DNA of 51,630 bases. Source: an uncultured bacterium. GTDB taxonomy: Bacteria > Nitrospirota > Thermodesulfovibrionia > Thermodesulfovibrionales > CALJEL01. Shown here piece by piece: positions 109 through 46,165 of this stretch. The stretch covers positions 1 through 51,630 of the forward strand of contig CALJEL010000047.1 in assembly GCA_938074335.1 (NCBI GenBank), given 5' to 3'. The notes beneath the pieces are model-generated. The model saw nothing but the letters and a program-made list of their open reading frames with translations. It did not search any database and was not told the DNA's origin. The stretch's first letter is position 1. Each line of letters opens with the position of its first letter. A program made the translations under genes and the position numbers.

Positions 109-196
109 AATAAAAACTACTGCTCTACTGCTCTGCTGGTCTGCTGCTCTATCAATAAAAACTACTGCTCTACTGCACTACTGCTCTGCTGGTCTA
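109..196. repeat. Degenerate octamer array (CTACTGCT class)
   Basis: The block AATAAAAACTACTGCTCTAC starts at 109 and again at 154, a 45-base direct repeat. The rest is built from degenerate octamers such as CTACTGCT, CTGCTGGT and CTACTGCA, the reverse complement of the AGAGCAGT class seen near 45960-46050. The upstream AAAAAATTCCTTAATAAAAA (97-116) also recurs inverted at about 46050-46070. Confidence 0.8.
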
Positions 197-9358: not shown

Positions 9359-9843
9359 TTATCCCTCGCCAAGTAAATTTATTGAATTTCCCATGAGCAA
9401 TAATAATCTTAATGCAATAAATTTTTTATGTTGTATTCTCTCCTTTAGTCCTATAGCAACCTATAGATGATGGGCTCGCAACCCCTTTAACTGAAGAAGC
9501 TGAAGAATCTTCCAGGGTCAAATCTATAATACCACATATCAAGATATGCTTCAACCCACTCTATTTTGCCATCGGCTCGACAAGCTCACGATTGGAGAAT
9601 TGGCTGTCTGCCTCAAAGTAGTGCTACGGTGCAACAGCACGCCTGACAGTGAAGTGAGTTAGGGATTAGTGAATTATTAACTGTTCAAACTGTTTAAACT
9701 GTTACATACTTACTCACTACTTTAGCGCTGGTAGCTCGCTGCTCCAAATCTACTTGCCAGAAAGTCAGCAGTTAGTTATTTCTGTAATTATAATCTTTTA
9801 TAAAACAATAAAAATTTTTATTCCAGAATTTGCCTCTTAAATC
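9359..9843. repeat. Intergenic region with composite palindromic repeat
   Basis: No gene is visible here. From about 9573 it holds TTTTGCCAT, an interposed TCGGCTCGACAAGCTCACGA, GGCTGTCTGCCTCAAAGTAG and octamer-like AGTGCTAC/GGTGCAAC. Then comes the left boundary GCACGCCTGACAGTGAAGTG, a short AGTGAATT stretch, and the right boundary ACTCACTACTTTAGC (about 9710-9726). The same boundary words flank the arrays at 31091-31318 and 38915-39030. This copy has a much shorter core containing three near-repeats of ACTGTT(C/T)AAA. Confidence 0.75.
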
Positions 9844-27340: not shown

Positions 27341-30300
27341 AGGACCACCTCCAGTTTATTCTTACCAATTATCTCCTGTGCCTTTCTTAGAAGTCTATAA
27401 TCAGGTGCAAAGCAATACCTGCTTTGAATCGTGACTGTGCAATCAGGCATTATAAAGTCAATATACAGCGGAATACCCTTTTGGTGAGCCTGTGAATTGG
27501 TGAAGGGGTGAATCGGTGAAGGGGTGAAGGTATATTTACTTAACATATCCTTTAACAGGAGGAGCCTGTCTCTTTCAAGGTGTGATGAGCTGAGCCTCAG
27601 TTGAATCCTGGAACAACCAAGCAGTGAATCCCTTATAAAGCCTTCAAAGTCCCGTATATCCTCAGCTATTATCTTAACGCCTTTTTCAGAAGTATCAGCA
27701 TTACCCCTTACAACAAGCATTGAACCCTTTTCAAGCAATGCCATTGATTTCTTATACAGTTCTGGAAATACAATAACCTCAATACTGCCCTCCTCATCCT
27801 CCAGGGTAATAAAGGACATCAATTCATTCTTTCCCCTGGTCTTATGTCTCTTAAGTTCAAGGATAAGTCCTGCTATAACAGAGGTGACCGGTCTGGAGTC
27901 AGAGGTCTGATTTCTAACTTCTGTTTTTAACTCTTCTGTGCTTTTTATTCCAAAGGTCTTTAATATCTCTCTGAAAGGCTTTACAGGATGCCCCGTGATA
28001 TAAAATCCAAGGGCCTCTTTTTCATAGGCAAGCCTCACCGCCTCATCCCAGTCCTTCAGGCCTGAGGTCGTGGGTCGATGCCCGGTGGTCGAAATCCCTG
28101 TTTCTGATTTCTGACCTTTGACTTCTGTTATCTCAAACATACTTGGCTGTATAGCACTACCGTTCCGGGATACAGGAGACTGAGCCCTTTCAAGCCTTGT
28201 TATAGCATCTTTTCTTGAAATACCGAGTGAATCAAAGGCACCTGCCTTTATAAGTGCCTCTATAACCTTTTTATTTAACTTTCTTGAAGCATCTCCGTTA
28301 GTATCAGACCCAGCTGTTCTATCAAGAAAATCCTCAAAGGACTCAAAAGGTCTCTTGAACCTCTCAGCCTTAATAAGCTCAACTGCTGCATCACCAACCC
28401 CTTTAACAGCCCTCAGGCCAAATCTTATGGCATTACCATCAATAGTAAATCCTTCCTCACTTTTATTGATATCAGGTGGTAGAACCTCTATCCCCATATC
28501 CCTGCACTCATTAATAAGTCTCAGAACCTTTTCAGTCTTATCAGACTCGGCTGTTAAAGAGGCAGCCATGAACTGAACAGGATAATGCGCCTTGAGATAG
28601 GCGGTCTGATAGGCCACAAGGGCATAGGCTGCTGAGTGAGATTTATTAAAACCATAATTACCAAAATATTCAATCAGTTCAAAAAGCCTTTTCGCTATTT
28701 CCTCTGGATAGCCCCGGTCTATGGCTCCCTTAATGAATCTTGTCTTTAATTCTTCCATCAAAAGGGGGTCTTTCTTTGATATAGCCCTTCTCAGTATATC
28801 TGCCTGACCCATTGTAAAGCCTGCTATCCTGTTGGAGATCCTCATAACCTGTTCCTGATAGAGTATCACTCCATAAGTCTCCTCAAGTATGTCCTTCAGT
28901 TCAGGTAATTCATACTTAACAGGGACAAATCCTTTCTTTCTCTTTATAAAATCCTCTACCATACCACTTCCAAGGGGCCCGGGTCTGTAGAGGGCCACAA
29001 GGGCGATCAGGTCATCAAACCTGTCAGGCTCGAGTTTTATCAACAATTCCCTCATCCCGGAACTTTCAAGCTGAAAGACACCGGCAGTCCTTCCCGAGGC
29101 AAGGAGTTTATAAGTCTCTTTATCATCAAGAGGAATATTGTTAATGTCAAAATCTGGTACCATCTCTTTTATGTACTTCTGAGTTTTATCAATTATGGTA
29201 AGGGTATCAAGTCCGAGGAAATCAAACTTAAGAAGCCCGACCTTTTCTATGGACTCCAGGTCAAACTGGGTTGTAATGGTCTCATCACCTTTTGAACCCC
29301 TGTAAAGGGCCGTATATTCTGTAAGGGGACCTGGTGCAATCACAACACCTGCTGCATGAACAGAGGCATGCCTTGCAAGACCTTCAAGCTTCATTGCTAT
29401 ATTAAGGAGCTCCCTTATCTGGGGATTTGTTTCATAGGCATCCTTAAGCGGAGGGGTTATCTCAATAGCAGTCTTCAGGTCTATCTCCTTTGTTACACTC
29501 TGGGGTATAAGCTTTGCAATCTTATCAACCTCCTGATAAGGGATACCACACACCCTGCCCACATCCCTCACAGCTGCCCTTGATGCCATTGTCCCGAAGG
29601 TGATTATCTGGGCTACCTGGTCCTTACCATACTTTTCCTGTACATACCTGATTACTTCTTCACGCCTGTCCCTGCAGAAATCCACATCTATATCAGGCAT
29701 ACTTACACGCTCAGGATTAAGAAATCTCTCAAAAAGGAGATTGTATTTAATGGGATCAATCTCTGTTATACCCAGTGCCCAGGCAACAAGGCTTCCAGCT
29801 GCAGAACCTCTCCCTGGACCAACGGGGATACCCTTTTCTTTAGCAAACTTTATGAAATCCCAGACTATTAAAAAATAAGAGGCATAACCCATCTTTTTTA
29901 TCATCCTGAGTTCTTCTTTAAGTCTCAACCTGTAACTGTCTGGCACAGCTGTTTTTGAAAATCTCCTTTTAAGTCCATCTTCAGCCAGCCGCTCAAGATA
30001 TCCTTCGGGAGTAAGACCATCTGGTGTCTTAAATTCTGGCAGGAGTGCACCACCAAGTTCAAGTGTAAGATTACATCTTTCAGCGATAAGAACCGTATTC
30101 CTTATTGCCTCTGGAGCTGAGCTGAATTCTTTTTTCATCTCCTCAGGCGATTTAAAATAAAATTCATCTGTCTGGAACTTCATCCTGTCCGGGTCTTTAA
30201 GTGTCTTATTGGTCTGAATACAGAGCAGTACCTCATGTGCCCTTGCATCTTCTCTTTTTAAATAATGACAATCATTTGTTGCCACCACTCTAAGATGAAC

Positions 30301-30938: not shown

Positions 30939-30954
30939 ATCAGCCAAAATGCCG

Positions 30955-31365
30955 GCAGAAAACTGGCAGGTTCCCCAAAGTAGTGCGACACCATAGTGCA
31001 ACAGTGCGACAGTGCGACAGTAGCACAGACATTCTTGTCTGTGAGTAGGGGCGAAAAATTTTTCGCCCCTACAGTGCTACAGTGCGACAGCACACCTGAC
31101 GGTGAAGTGAGTTAGGGATTAGTGAATTAGTGAATTAGTGAATTAGGGAATTAGTGAATTAGTGAATTAGGGAATTAGGGAGTTAGGGAGTTAGGGATTA
31201 GTGAGTTAGTGAGTTAGTGACTTAGTGAGTTAGTGAATTAGTATTTTCTAACTCACTAACTCACTTGCATACTAACTCACTACTTTAGCTCACTTGCATA
31301 CTAATTCACTACTTTAGCTCTGTCGCTCTGTCGCACTAAAAGCTGTCGTTCTGTCGCTCTATCAA
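30955..31365. repeat. Large composite dyad repeat upstream of dnaE
   Basis: This gap of over 500 bases has no gene. In order it holds CCGGCAGAAAACTGGCAGG, octamers AGTGCGAC/AGTGCAAC (about 30975-31020), the palindrome CACAGACATTCTTGTCTGTG (31024-31043) and a 28-bp GTAGGGGC palindrome (31045-31072). Then come AGTGCTAC/AGTGCGAC and the boundary GCACACCTGACGGTGAAGTG. Fifteen AGTGAATT-type units at 31121-31239 follow, then TATTTTC. The opposite strand of the same words comes next (TAACTCAC, TTGCATAC, TACTTTAGC twice) and finally CTGTCGCT/CTGTCGCA octamers to about 31365. The two halves are roughly reverse complements, so the whole could fold into one long hairpin. Confidence 0.85.
31045..31072. 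repeat. 28-bp palindrome, GTAGGGGC-arm family
   Basis: Perfect 28-bp palindrome: arms GTAGGGGC/GCCCCTAC, centre GAAAAATTTTTC. It lies between octamer arrays, directly after CACAGACATTCTTGTCTGTG. Confidence 0.9.
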
Positions 31366-31433
31366 GGTGTCACTAAAAAGGCATTCATATCGCATCGTTA
31401 TATCAGCAATTTACCGGGGACCTGAGGAAATGG

Positions 31434-31835
31434 TTAAAGAATTCCCATATTCAATAGATATTTCTTACTTTCTGTCAAAAATTCTGCTGCCTCCTTTAAG
31501 GCGGTCTCGGCCGACTCCCTGTCTATATAAGAAAAGATCTCATAGTCTCCAGTTTCTCTATCATCCTTTAGATTTGCAAGATATTTCCCGAGATTCTTTT
31601 TAAACTTTCCGGTTTTTACAAAGAGAAGGCCAAAGAGCGTAACAACCCCTTTATGAGTCTCGGCCTTTTCACCTTCAGACAAAAGTAGTGCCTGTGCTGC
31701 ATGATACACAGCATAATAGGCCCTTGAGACAGCATCTTCATAATCTCCTGTCTCGAAAAGCCTCTTTGCTACCTCAAGCTTCTTGTCAGCCTTTTCTATG
31801 TAACCTTTTATAAATTCCTTAATCGCTGGTTCCAA
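31434..31835 (-). CDS. HEPN domain protein (probable toxin of a HEPN/MNT pair)
   Basis: 133 residues, all-helical HEPN domain. The segment SRAYYAVYHAAQALLL holds the Arg and His of the HEPN RNase motif (R-x6-H here), with Tyr residues nearby that MNT partners can AMPylate in characterised pairs. The TTG start has AAGGAG six bases upstream and overlaps the nucleotidyltransferase gene by 17 bases. This gene order and overlap are typical of type VII toxin-antitoxin modules. RNase activity is inferred; a repair or accessory role cannot be excluded. Confidence 0.85.
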   Translation of the reverse strand: MEPAIKEFIKGYIEKADKKLEVAKRLFETGDYEDAVSRAYYAVYHAAQALLLSEGEKAETHKGVVTLFGLLFVKTGKFKKNLGKYLANLKDDRETGDYEIFSYIDRESAETALKEAAEFLTESKKYLLNMGIL

Positions 31836-32163
31836 GTTTAACTCCTTCCTTCAGAACATTCTGCATAAATGGTGTAGGTATAGAACTAAGACGATTGAAT
31901 TCTGTCTCTGTAAAGATCTTTAGCGAAACTAATCTACCTGTCTCAAGTAATATATCCATAACAATATCATAAAGCTTATCAATTAAAGCCCTATCCTTCC
32001 TCTCAAGAACTATCAGGATATCATAGTCAGAATCAGGCCTCCAGTCATCACGGCTCCTTGAACCAAATAAATAGACAGACTTTATCTCTTTGCTTAATGG
32101 TTTAAGATGTGAGAGGAATCTCCTTATCACAGGATCATCATTTAACAGGCCCTTATTTTTCAT
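31819..32163 (-). CDS. MNT-type nucleotidyltransferase (probable antitoxin)
   Basis: 114 residues of the minimal nucleotidyltransferase fold. The signature VYLFGSRSRDDWRPDSDYDILIV contains GSRSR and the two Asp residues (DSDYD) that bind metal; the third acidic position follows in the next strand. In HEPN/MNT pairs such proteins AMPylate the HEPN partner and neutralise it. There is no ribosome-binding site; TGGTATACT ends six bases before the ATG, so the operon may be leaderless. Both flanks of the pair are composite repeats. Confidence 0.88.
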   Translation of the reverse strand: MKNKGLLNDDPVIRRFLSHLKPLSKEIKSVYLFGSRSRDDWRPDSDYDILIVLERKDRALIDKLYDIVMDILLETGRLVSLKIFTETEFNRLSSIPTPFMQNVLKEGVKLGTSD

Positions 32164-32169
32164 TAATCA

Positions 32170-32178
32170 AGTATACCA
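32170..32178 (-). promoter_or_regulatory. Extended -10 promoter of the HEPN/MNT operon
   Basis: On the minus strand TGG-TATACT ends six bases before the ATG at 32163. No Shine-Dalgarno lies between, so the first codon would be at or within a base or two of the transcript start. Confidence 0.55.
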
Positions 32179-32217
32179 CAAATCGACTTCAGGGATTCGC
32201 AAGGATAATGTAGCATA

Positions 32218-32410
32218 AATAGAGCAGCAGAGCAGTAGAGCCAGTAGCACAGACATTCTTGTCTGTGGCTTACTAAGTAGGGGCACGGCATGCCGTGCCC
32301 CTACTGCCGCACTGTCGCTCTGTCGCACTGTCGCTCTATCGCACTAAAAGCTGTTGCTCTGCTGCACTGTTGCTCTACTGCTCTATTATTGCCTGCTGCT
32401 CTAATGCTCT
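32218..32410. repeat. Composite dyad repeat between MNT and DUF488 genes
   Basis: The left arm is AGAGCAGC/AGAGCAGT octamers (32221-32247). The centre is CACAGACATTCTTGTCTGTG (32248-32267) and a 28-bp palindrome with arms GTAGGGGC and centre ACGGCATGCCGT (32277-32304). The right arm is CTGTCGCT, CTGTCGCA, CTATCGCA, CTGCTGCA, CTACTGCT octamers to about 32410, the reverse-complement class. The array separates two divergent transcription units. Confidence 0.85.
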
Positions 32411-32434
32411 ATTTCTGGTATCATAATATGATAT

Positions 32435-33431: not shown

Positions 33432-34181
33432 ATGAAAAAATTTATTCATTATATGTTTGTCTTTTTTGCCTCTGCTGTCTTCCTCAGTGCCTGTGCCTCT
33501 GCACAAAAAAAGGATGAACCCTTTGAACCCGAGGCATGGCTCAAGAAGGCTGAAAAAATGATAGAACAGGGTGAATATCAGGAGGCAAGAAATCTGCTCC
33601 TTGAGATCAAGAACAGGGATACAACCATGAACTTTGCTCCAAAGGCACAACTCAAGATTGCCGAGTCCTATATAAAGGAAGAAGAGCCTGAACTCGCCAT
33701 TGAAGAATACAGGAAATTCTTAAGGGAATTTCCTGATCATTCTTATGCACCCTATGCCCAGTATCAAATTGCCAGTATTTATTTTCAGGGTGTAAAAGGT
33801 CCTGAAAGGGGCGCTGGTGAGGCAAAGAAGGCACTTGAAGAATTTGAGAGATTAAAAAGATTGTATCCGAGAAATCCCTACAGGGATATTATTGACATAA
33901 AAATAGAAAAATGCAGAGAGGTGATGGCAGCCTATGAATTCATGGTTGGCAAATTCTACTTTAAAAAAGAGTCCTTCAGGGCTGCACAGGGAAGATTTGA
34001 AGGTCTTATAAAGACCTATCCTGATTACAGGAATATGCCTGAGGTCCTGTATCTTCTATGGAAGACCTATATAAGCCTTAATCAAAAGGAAAAGGCAGAA
34101 AACACCTATAAAGAACTTCTTTCACGATTTCCTAATTCAAAAGAGGCATCAAAGGCAAGAACAGAGCAGCAGAGCCAGTAG
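33432..34181 (+). CDS. bamD: Outer membrane assembly lipoprotein BamD
   Basis: Periplasm-facing outer-membrane lipoprotein of the BAM complex. 249 residues: signal peptide MKKFIHYMFVFFASAVFLSAC with lipobox LSAC (Cys21), then TPR-type repeats (AEKMIEQGEYQEARNLLLEI, AIEEYRKFLREFPDHSYAP, ALEEFERLKRLYPRNPY, and a last one with YKELLSRFPNSKEAS). The last residues RTEQQSQ and the stop TAG are read out of the intergenic AGAGCAGC-type repeat that continues after the gene. The message appears leaderless. A tetratricopeptide lipoprotein of another kind is possible but BamD fits best in length and repeat layout. Confidence 0.88.
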   Translation: MKKFIHYMFVFFASAVFLSACASAQKKDEPFEPEAWLKKAEKMIEQGEYQEARNLLLEIKNRDTTMNFAPKAQLKIAESYIKEEEPELAIEEYRKFLREFPDHSYAPYAQYQIASIYFQGVKGPERGAGEAKKALEEFERLKRLYPRNPYRDIIDIKIEKCREVMAAYEFMVGKFYFKKESFRAAQGRFEGLIKTYPDYRNMPEVLYLLWKTYISLNQKEKAENTYKELLSRFPNSKEASKARTEQQSQ

Positions 34182-34277
34182 CACAGACATTCTTGTCTGT
34201 GGCTTAAAAAGTAGCATAGACATTCTTGTCTGTGGCTTACTAAGTAGTGCTACAGTGCGACAGATAGAGCAGCAGCT
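34160..34277. repeat. Repeat cluster starting within bamD
   Basis: AGAGCAGC-type octamers begin inside the last bamD codons. They lead into two copies of the dyad CACAGACATTCTTGTCTGTG (34182-34201 exact; 34215-34234 with one change), a stretch GGCTTACTAAGTAGTGCTAC and further octamers (AGTGCGAC, AGATAGAGC). Confidence 0.8.
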
Positions 34278-34348
34278 GGTAGCCGCAAGCTTTAGCTTGC
34301 GTTTTTTGTATTTCCACCATTTATCGCAGGCTGAAGCCTGCGGCTACC
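34278..34348. repeat. Paired-hairpin (REP-like) element, copy 1
   Basis: The outer arms GGTAGCCGC/GCGGCTACC enclose two hairpins, CGCAAGC-TTTA-GCTTGCG and CGCAGGC-TGAA-GCCTGCG, separated by a linker containing GTATTTCCACCATTTATCGC. The linker with its flanking GCGTTTTTT recurs exactly inverted at 39091-39119. Structure and size resemble REP/BIME units mobilised by RAYT transposases. Confidence 0.85.
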
Positions 34349-34361
34349 TCACTGCTGAGGA

Positions 34362-34367
34362 TAAAAT
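34362..34367 (+). promoter_or_regulatory. -10 element five bases before the siroheme gene
   Basis: TAAAAT is followed by TTGTC and ATG 34373, the same five-base spacing as at 11114 and 33421. The preceding TGAGG does not give a TGn extension in register. No -35 box is obvious. Confidence 0.4.
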
Positions 34368-34372
34368 TTGTC

Positions 34373-35014
34373 ATGGTCATAAAATATTATTACCCTGTCT
34401 TTTTGGCTCTTAAAGGAAAAGACTGTGTTGTTATTGGCGGTGGGAGGGTTGCTGAAAGAAAGATAAGGTCACTCCTCAAAGCAGGTGCATCCGTCACTGT
34501 GATAAGTCCTCAGATTACTGAAAACATTAAACGACTTGTTAAGAAAAATAAAATAAAGCTTCTCAAAAGACAGTACAGGAAAGGAGACCTTAAAAAGGCC
34601 TTTCTTGTGGTAGCAGCCACATCCTCAAGAGAACTTCATGAAAAGATTGCAGGAGAATTTAAAGGACTTCTTAATGTGGTGGATGAACCTGAATTATGTA
34701 ATTTTATAGTACCCTCAGTGGTTAAAAGAGGACCTCTCACCATTGCCGTATCCACATCTGGAGCCTCTCCAGCCATGGCAAAGACAATAAGAAAAGAGCT
34801 TGAAGATTTATATCCTGAAGAGCTTGGCCTCTATCTAAATGAACTCAAGAGGTTAAGAAAAAAAATTATAAAACTGCCGCTCAGAGAAAAAATCAGGTTT
34901 ATTCGTCTTCTTACATCTCCTGATATACTTAAAGCCCTCAGGAGCAAGAAAAATCCCAGAACCCTTATCAAGGGCTTGATGGATGGACTATCCCTGAAGG
35001 AAATGAAATCCTGA
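34373..35014 (+). CDS. Precorrin-2 dehydrogenase/sirohydrochlorin ferrochelatase (siroheme synthase N-terminal type)
   Basis: Makes sirohydrochlorin and/or siroheme from precorrin-2; siroheme is the cofactor of sulfite reductase. 213 residues, the length of stand-alone Met8/CysG-N proteins. The NAD-binding start YYPVFLALKGKDCVVIGGGRVAERKI is followed by the catalytic-Asp region NVVDEPELCNFIVPSVVKRG and TSGASPAMAKTIRKELE. There is no methyltransferase domain. The last 47 bases overlap the convergent DUF4912 gene. It probably supplies siroheme to the sulfite reductase encoded elsewhere. Confidence 0.93.
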   Translation: MVIKYYYPVFLALKGKDCVVIGGGRVAERKIRSLLKAGASVTVISPQITENIKRLVKKNKIKLLKRQYRKGDLKKAFLVVAATSSRELHEKIAGEFKGLLNVVDEPELCNFIVPSVVKRGPLTIAVSTSGASPAMAKTIRKELEDLYPEELGLYLNELKRLRKKIIKLPLREKIRFIRLLTSPDILKALRSKKNPRTLIKGLMDGLSLKEMKS

Positions 35015-38904: not shown

Positions 38905-39030
38905 AGTAGTGCGATAGCACACCTGACGGTGAAGTAAGTTAGGGATTAGTGAATTAGTGAGTTAGTGATTAGTGAGTTAGTATTTTCTAATTCACTAACT
39001 CACTTGCATACTAACTCACTACTTTAGCAC
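38905..39030. repeat. Composite dyad repeat after folK
   Basis: This copy has AGTAGTGCGATAGCACACCT, GACGGTGAAGTAAGTTAGGG, five or six AGTGAATT-type units, TATTTTC, and the complementary half CTAATTCACTAACTCACTTG and CATACTAACTCACTACTTTAGC, ending in CTGTCACTCT. It is a short version of the element at 31081-31365 with the same boundaries. No gene lies in 38905-39255. Confidence 0.85.
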
Positions 39031-39047
39031 TGTCACTCTATTAAGGA

Positions 39048-39161
39048 GGTAGCCGCAGGCTTCAGCCTATGTGGCGCAGGCTTCCAGCCTGCGATAAATG
39101 GTGGAAATACAAAAAACGCCTTCAACAGGCTGGAAGCCTGTTCTACCAGTTTGCGGCTACC
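39048..39161. repeat. Paired-hairpin (REP-like) element, copy 2
   Basis: Outer arms GGTAGCCGC/GCGGCTACC as in 34278-34348 but inverted and longer (114 bp). It contains GCAGGCTTCAGCC, CGCAGGC-TTCCA-GCCTGCG, the linker GCGATAAATGGTGGAAATAC with AAAAAACGC, and an extra hairpin ACAGGCTGGAAGCCTGT. Confidence 0.85.
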
Positions 39162-39182
39162 TACTTGCGATTGCCCTCAAAA

Positions 39183-40485: not shown

Positions 40486-40566
40486 ACTTTTTGCTACATA
40501 ATAAATAAAATTTGTCGCATTGTAAAGACTTTGAGGCAGACTGCCAGTTTTCTAATGGCAAAATAG
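40486..40566. repeat. 80-bp dispersed intergenic repeat, copy 2
   Basis: Nearly identical to bases 1-80: CTACATAATAAATAAAATTT, GTCGCATTGTAAAGACTTTG, AGGCAGACTGCCAGTTTTCT, AATGGCAAAATAGAG. In this copy the end of the repeat supplies the -10-like TAAAAT located five bases before the DUF1460 gene. Confidence 0.85.
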
Positions 40567-40579
40567 AGTAAAATCTCCT

Positions 40580-45884: not shown

Positions 45885-46165
45885 CCCTATTTTGCCATTA
45901 GAGAACTGGCAGTCTGCCTCAAGGTAGTGCTACGGTGCGATAGTGCTACAGTGCGACAGTGCGACAGATAGAGCAGTAGACCAGCAGAGCAGTAGAGCAG
46001 TAGTTTTTTTAATAGAGCAGCAGACCAGTAGAGCAGTAGACCAGCAGTTTTTATTAAGGAATTTTTTTTAATCATTTAATTGCTGCGCTGCTGCTCTACT
46101 GCTCTGTTATTTCCTGTTGCTCTGCTGCTCTATTATTGCCTGTCGCTCTCTCGCACTTTTAAGGT
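45885..46165. repeat. Composite octamer repeat between activase and binding-protein genes
   Basis: TTTTGCCATTAGAGAACTGG and CAGTCTGCCTCAAGG (inverted relative to bases 46-78) run into octamers AGTGCTAC, GGTGCGAT, AGTGCGAC (45926-45966). AGAGCAGT, AGACCAGC units follow to about 46050, then AGTTTTTATTAAGGAATTTT (inverted copy of 97-118), and CTGCTGCT, CTACTGCT, CTGTCGCT octamers of the opposite class. The 630-base gap from 45822 contains no gene besides the leader of the next one. Confidence 0.85.

Follow-up and report, generated by a model that had tools for sequence, protein, structure and literature searches.

Octamer-repeat composites in a Thermodesulfovibrionales genome are probably gene-less copies of a mobile element family with an IVP-bearing parent

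Repeat composites of the window

The window, the whole analysed stretch of 51,630 nucleotides, is contig G000:C47 of a source genome (G000) of 2.22 Mb in 116 contigs, 100% complete. Below, G denotes a genome (G001 is a same-genus genome, the congener), C a contig and L a locus. Several gaps between genes of the window carry composites of degenerate eight-base units, related by arm class (AGTGAATT, AGTGCGAC or AGAGCAGT), and one array lies within dnaE. The features are as follows.

109..196, minus strand: AGAGCAGT-class array pair in partner arm orientation
9637..9726, plus strand: short AGTGAATT-class element with a central AACTGTTYA nonamer stretch; weak fold
27483..27530, minus strand: in-frame GGTGAAGG-class array within dnaE, codons about 1132-1148; G001 DnaE 7 residues shorter there
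30980..31365, plus strand: AGTGCGAC-class dyad composite with the main element at its centre; left arms 30980-31022 and 31073-31090, right arm about 31319-31365
31020..31072, no strand assigned: two GTAG-started palindromes inside the left AGTGCGAC arm, GTAGCACAGACATTCTTGTCTGTG (31020-31043) and GTAGGGGCGAAAAATTTTTCGCCCCTAC (31045-31072)
31090..31318, plus strand: main element, AGTGAATT class, no IVP gene; same ends as the IVP-carrying copy at G000:C2 (L300); hairpin z -10.5
31090-31109, plus strand: left end of the main element, GCACACCTGACGGTGAAGTG
31110-31242, plus strand: octamer arm of the main element, then loop and right arm
31263-31289 and 31292-31318, plus strand: two copies of the right end of the main element, ACTTGCATACTAACTCACTACTTTAGC, from the genome pattern search
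32213..32412, no strand assigned: composite of AGAGCAGT- and AGTGCGAC-class arms with two GTAG palindromes between them
34163..34362, no strand assigned: GTAG palindromes combined with AGTGCGAC/AGAGCAGT units in one composite; about 48 bp in G001 vs about 222 bp
38906..39039, plus strand: AGTGCGAC-class dyad enclosing an IVP-less AGTGAATT-class element (38917-39028); hairpin z -6.2; unalignable in G001
45887..46165, no strand assigned: composite of an outer CCATTAGAGAACTGGCAGTCTGCCTCAAGG end, a AGTGCGAC array (45923-45967), AGAGCAGT arrays (45968-46048) and an opposite arm (46078-46150)

We scanned the window for self-similarity at fixed spacing, with 20 Markov shuffles as control. Periods 8 and 16 alone reached the threshold, and none of the shuffles did (0/20), placing the period-8 signal beyond chance. 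The period-8 stretches (110-201, 27484-27535, 30987-31035, 31101-31265, 31298-31339, 32293-32391, 38942-38982, 45923-46050 and 46066-46106) were confined to the gaps named in an earlier note on this DNA and to dnaE, and octamers were present in all six of those gaps. The tandem run that the note had placed at 31121-31239 was recovered by TRF at 31106-31242 (17.4 copies of period 8), with 86% matches, 3% indels and 7-base slips such as GTTAGGGATTAG, so the periodicity is not exact as had been stated. The gap 9573-9726 does carry octamers, but only two, next to its nonamer stretch and with no hairpin excess (z +0.1); that stretch resembles the arms of a source-genome IVP gene at C98 (L215). Genome-wide counts are pattern searches of the source genome, in which a looser octamer pattern was found at 263 places against 52.

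Other repeats occur in the window too. The palindromes at 31020-31072 appear REP-like, judged from their GTAG start plus hairpin, and REP-like palindromic repeats GGTAGCCGCAGGCTTCAGCC around TTTTTTGTATTTCCACCATTTATCGCAGGC were seen at 34299-34356 and 39046-39170. An outer repeat, TTTTGCCATTAGAAAACTGGCAGTCTGCCTCAAAG, at 40-80, 9591-9619, 40489-40568 and 45887-45925 frames several composites; its copy at 40489-40568 is without octamers, indicating a separate element family.

Ends, folding and the gene-bearing copy

The right boundary word ACTTGCATACTAACTCACTACTTTAGC was found at 57 places (at most 3 mismatches) in the 2.22 Mb genome, while the reversed control gave 0. In copies aligned by this end, the left boundary word GCACACCTGACGG preceded nearly all copies that have a left end, and the core of the gene-less copies varied from 77 to 216 bp with the ends constant. 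Fixed boundary words with a varying core, and a multi-copy family of composite dyads, had been proposed from the window, and the genome-wide count, which could have refuted the proposal, bears both out. Within a copy, GCACACCTGACGG-TGAAGTGAGTTAGGG is followed by the AGTGAATT arm, which varies, and a short loop separates this arm from the opposite one.

Most AGTGAATT-class copies sit at the centre of a AGTGCGAC dyad, with AGTGCGACAG on the left and TCTGTCGCACT on the right; the classes are therefore separate elements, one within another. What had been read as class switching in one element is thus the mutual nesting of distinct, related elements with AGTGAATT, AGTGCGAC and AGAGCAGT arm repeats, together with GTAG-started hairpins of REP type, which are also nested in the composites. 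Dyad symmetry was borne out at 31070-31345 (RNA z -10.5) and 38905-39045 (z -6.2) but not at 45922-46070, so not every composite folds. The predicted stem of the main element is a candidate for cutting by RNase III. Rfam gave no match at the elements, and the window copies are intergenic and lie outside 23S rRNA.

A gene-bearing copy was detected at G000:C2 (L300/L004). It has the same left hairpin, a TGAAGTGAATTAG arm, an intact ORF and then CTAATTCACTAACTCACTTGCATACTAACTCACTACTTTAGC, in 457 bp. The ORF product matches PF05635 (23S_rRNA_IVP) and TIGR02436, with PDB relatives 2gsc and 2rld, and is the four-helix-bundle protein 23S rRNA IVP/S23; it is the only gene of this copy. The window copies share its ends but not the ORF and are therefore gene-less derivatives. 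As no PF05635 match was found in the window, and thus no such gene lies between the window arms, we call them derivatives rather than IVP elements. The note, made without searches, knew of no described family that fits; searching reveals a known relative, namely elements with an IVP/S23 gene between such arms, and one of them, with identical ends, is in the source genome.

The source genome holds one IVP gene with AGTGAATT arms, and a profile search found no intact IVP with AGAGCAGT or AGTGCGAC arms there. IVP genes with arms of these two types on either side were found in relatives (G001:C28, decayed with one stop; G014:C26; G095:C2; loci L199/L214, L226, L241), and the AGTGCGAC-class arms around the IVP gene at L241 support the composite reading of 30980..31365. 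L226, L241 and L227 form one clade in the IVP tree (support 99/96).

The G000:C2 copy lies within a CRISPR array whose repeats recur at intervals of 70-75 bp. IVP elements were repeatedly seen in CRISPR arrays (L004/L300 in G000:C2; L196/L198/L199 in G001; L209 in G023:C21; L371/L372/L377 in G012; plasmid loci L336, L341 and L344) and, in the same set of loci, between cas genes (cas6-cas4, cas10-cmr3). At L212 (G065:C72) the ATPase domain of a histidine kinase is split by an IVP gene that has heptamer arms, and coding resumes past the right arm.

Generality, mobility and coding-gene arrays

Among 25 Thermodesulfovibrionales IVP loci, arrays were found in nearly all flanks, with equal period on both sides and inverted orientation. 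We extended the set to 49 loci by adding Elusimicrobiota, Geobacteraceae, Cyanobacteria, Myxococcota, Bacteroidota, Planctomycetota, Verrucomicrobiota, Nitrospinota and Peregrinibacteria, and required each flank to score 14/21 or more at a shared period. Inverted 6-9-mer arrays of one period were detected by this criterion at 37/49 IVP genes, against 41/2240 random places (1.8%) and 10/517 offset places in the same loci (1.9%); 6/49 failed the arm criteria. The best period was 7 in 29 loci and 8 in 14. At the same threshold, a hold-out set gave 15/22 vs 1/144 for the control (p 3e-15), with 7/22 failing the strict criterion. On complete plasmids of isolates (nearly all cultured cyanobacteria, plus Gemmatirosa and Azospirillum) the count was 12/13, and the arms are typical cyanobacterial heptamers (CAGGAGTCAGAAGT, GGGGAGTAGGGAGT, AAAGCTAAAAGCT). 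The genomes are mostly draft MAGs, and the complete genomes and isolate plasmids agree with them. The arm-IVP-arm architecture is thus common to many bacterial phyla.

Within the order, IVP was present in 11/11 genomes having the octamer pattern vs 38/70 lacking it (Fisher p 0.003). Many matches of the broad pattern scan across genomes are chance hits in GC-rich coding repeats; the Nitrospirota matches alone were used, and the remaining ones supplied the random control places and the other-phylum genomes. Arm period was rejected as a clade marker, its clustering on the IVP tree being weak (9 changes vs 12 shuffled), and strand polarity of the arms (G-rich upstream) is also weak (27/38, p 0.014). 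Carriage by phages was rejected too, as no IVP match was found in phages.

Where two IVP loci with different neighbours were compared (L339/L340, L346/L347, L214/L226), homology extended from arm to arm only; the stretch shared by L339/L340 runs from 38 bp before to 12 bp after. In the complete genome G012, two copies separated by 216 kb are 95% identical, and a third, within a CRISPR array, is decayed. The congener has no counterparts of the window elements at 30940-32416 and 34166-34388, with about 107 and about 48 bp there, the former comparison also involving a relocated gene pair. This pair, HEPN / MNT-type nucleotidyltransferase (31434-32163), lies between two composites and is on the opposite side of a DUF488 gene in G001, as if moved with the elements. 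Insertions seem to swap out a few target bases; no clean target-site duplication was found at the junctions compared with relatives, where the flanks are much diverged. L203/L204, whose IVPs in G000 and G053 are nearly identical, differ in the length of their arrays, which therefore turn over fast.

The dnaE array, GGTGAAGG, lies near the C-terminus, at the position where the congener protein is shorter, and its unit is that of the arms of an IVP gene at G000:C28 (L204). In relatives, in-frame arrays were detected in CarA, CarB, AroA, HisF, FolC, MurE, PheT and a nuclease (gene names read from translations), demonstrating their presence in essential genes. The repeat family found in one linker of CarA differs between genera, and in CarB and AroA the array is absent at that place in some genomes; the HisF alignment was poor and was left out as evidence of an empty site. 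In AroA, CarA and CarB (L270-L294) the same enzyme loop carries unrelated short-repeat inserts by genus, all in frame, and such loops are insertion hot spots or tolerated sites.

Proposed origin and comparison with known systems

We consider it probable that the composites are nested miniature copies, lacking the gene, of a small mobile element family that has an IVP parent and spreads by means of IVP. The ends common to the window copies and the IVP copy, the copy number, the absence at matching congener places, the length change and the cross-phylum generality support this reading. Points against it are the IVP genes without qualifying arms, the single AGTGAATT-armed IVP gene of the source genome, the missing clean target-site duplication, the draft state of most genomes and the view that Coxiella S23p is not produced in vivo (PMC4990558). 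In its full form the element would have one gene, for IVP (S23, four-helix-bundle), flanked on the left by degenerate tandem 8-mers and on the right by their reverse complements, with constant outermost words. Copies would insert into intergenic gaps, the centres of older copies and, in frame, tolerant coding loops. Internal deletion would leave arm-to-arm hairpins still able to spread, with arm length then drifting through slippage. Mobility would be due to IVP, which would act on the folded arms, the hairpin may be the intermediate, and the deletion derivatives were probably moved by IVP acting in trans on hairpin ends.

Simple-sequence arrays that replication slippage produced and that are retained as spacers or as regulatory hairpins, with IVP genes landing in or beside them, would also account for the quick variation in array length, the degenerate units and the existence of in-frame arrays without IVP. 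We regard this as unlikely, since slippage does not fit non-repetitive end words common to 57 copies, one period in inverted orientation on both IVP flanks, or the homology of IVP loci that stops at or near the arms while the neighbours differ. It is very unlikely that a Y1 (HUH) transposase moves the hairpins as in REP/BIME, with IVP as cargo. The GTAG-started palindromes within the composites and two Y1_Tnp matches in the source genome agree with such a mover, but the octamer arms lack the constant GTAG foot and track IVP genes, and G045 has octamer arrays and three IVP elements without a Y1 match, which makes a Y1 transposase improbable as sole mover. Copying of the element via RNA by a trans-acting reverse transcriptase, for which IVP would serve as an Avd-like partner and which would make the arrays by reiterative copying, is likewise very unlikely: the Avd of DGR is a four-helix bundle and tandem degenerate units look like reiterative synthesis, but RVT_1 was not found in the source genome (100% complete), the congener or most IVP-bearing relatives searched.

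The proposed IVP-bearing family may account for common 7-8 base repeats of bacteria that have been without explanation. If arms and IVP are two halves of one element, the protein gains a substrate and the repeats gain a source, and both are testable. The reading further suggests how conserved enzymes (CarA, CarB, AroA, HisF, MurE, FolC, DnaE) came by their recurrent in-frame inserts, and how elements came to lodge in CRISPR arrays. The chances are about even that inverted degenerate 6-9-mer array ends with IVP/S23 as the sole gene define a mobile-element class in many phyla, whose derivatives make up much unexplained heptamer/octamer content, including cyanobacterial STRR and in-frame low-complexity inserts in essential proteins.

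Rickettsia palindromic elements insert in frame into coding genes and pneumococcal BOX elements have fixed ends with a variable core copy number, and in these respects both resemble the elements described here; we know of no relation to them in sequence or parent gene. CRISPR arrays have identical direct repeats and unique spacers, and the units here are tandem, degenerate and without spacers; as the earlier note had stated, the elements are neither CRISPR nor standard MITEs. Like MITEs, they include short gene-less copies with the ends of a gene-bearing parent; unlike MITEs, their ends are degenerate tandem arrays, their parent encodes no transposase and target duplication was not seen at the compared junctions. 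REP/BIME with RAYT share the hairpins, nesting and intergenic abundance, and the composites do contain genuine GTAG palindromes; the GTAG foot and hairpin belong to these palindromes, not to the IVP-tracking octamer arms.

The cyanobacterial STRR, TAACTGA of Beggiatoaceae (PMC4679880) and GGGNATC (PMC4692102) are likewise degenerate, mostly intergenic tandem arrays, with a unit of 7 vs 8 in the window, and work alike. On complete plasmids, cyanobacterial IVP genes lie within STRR-like heptamer arrays. The heptamer reports give no gene or mobile unit (PMC4679880, PMC4692102), one merely suggesting that an unidentified repeat-binding protein might be a mobile element (PMC4679880), and heptamer repeats and the S23/IVP protein have been described as unexplained (PMC4692102, PMC4679880, PMC4990558). 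In searches of open-access full texts we found no paper linking IVP genes generally to such arms, or gene-less copies to repeat families.

Among the closest known systems is the 23S rRNA IVS with an S23p/IVP ORF (Coxiella, Leptospira), which has the same protein family and an inverted stem around the ORF. IVS are described as rRNA inserts, whereas the present elements lie in intergenic gaps, operons, CRISPR arrays and coding genes, have 57 copies of one end, are mostly without a gene and consist of 8-mer units; the window copies have the inverted short-tandem-repeat arms of an IVS-type element but neither its PF05635 gene nor its place in 23S rRNA. The IVP gene of Azospirillum (L348) has heptamer arms, and the sequence around it looks like a 23S rRNA gene. 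In Coxiella, tandem GACAGAT heptamers, strain-variable in number, stand just before S23p, a protein believed not to be produced in vivo (PMC4990558). IVP in 23S IVS, heptamer repeats, and both in one Coxiella element (PMC4990558) are thus already known. We place the elements described here with the IVS-type selfish elements, as a variant, and there is a fair chance that they deserve a separate class.
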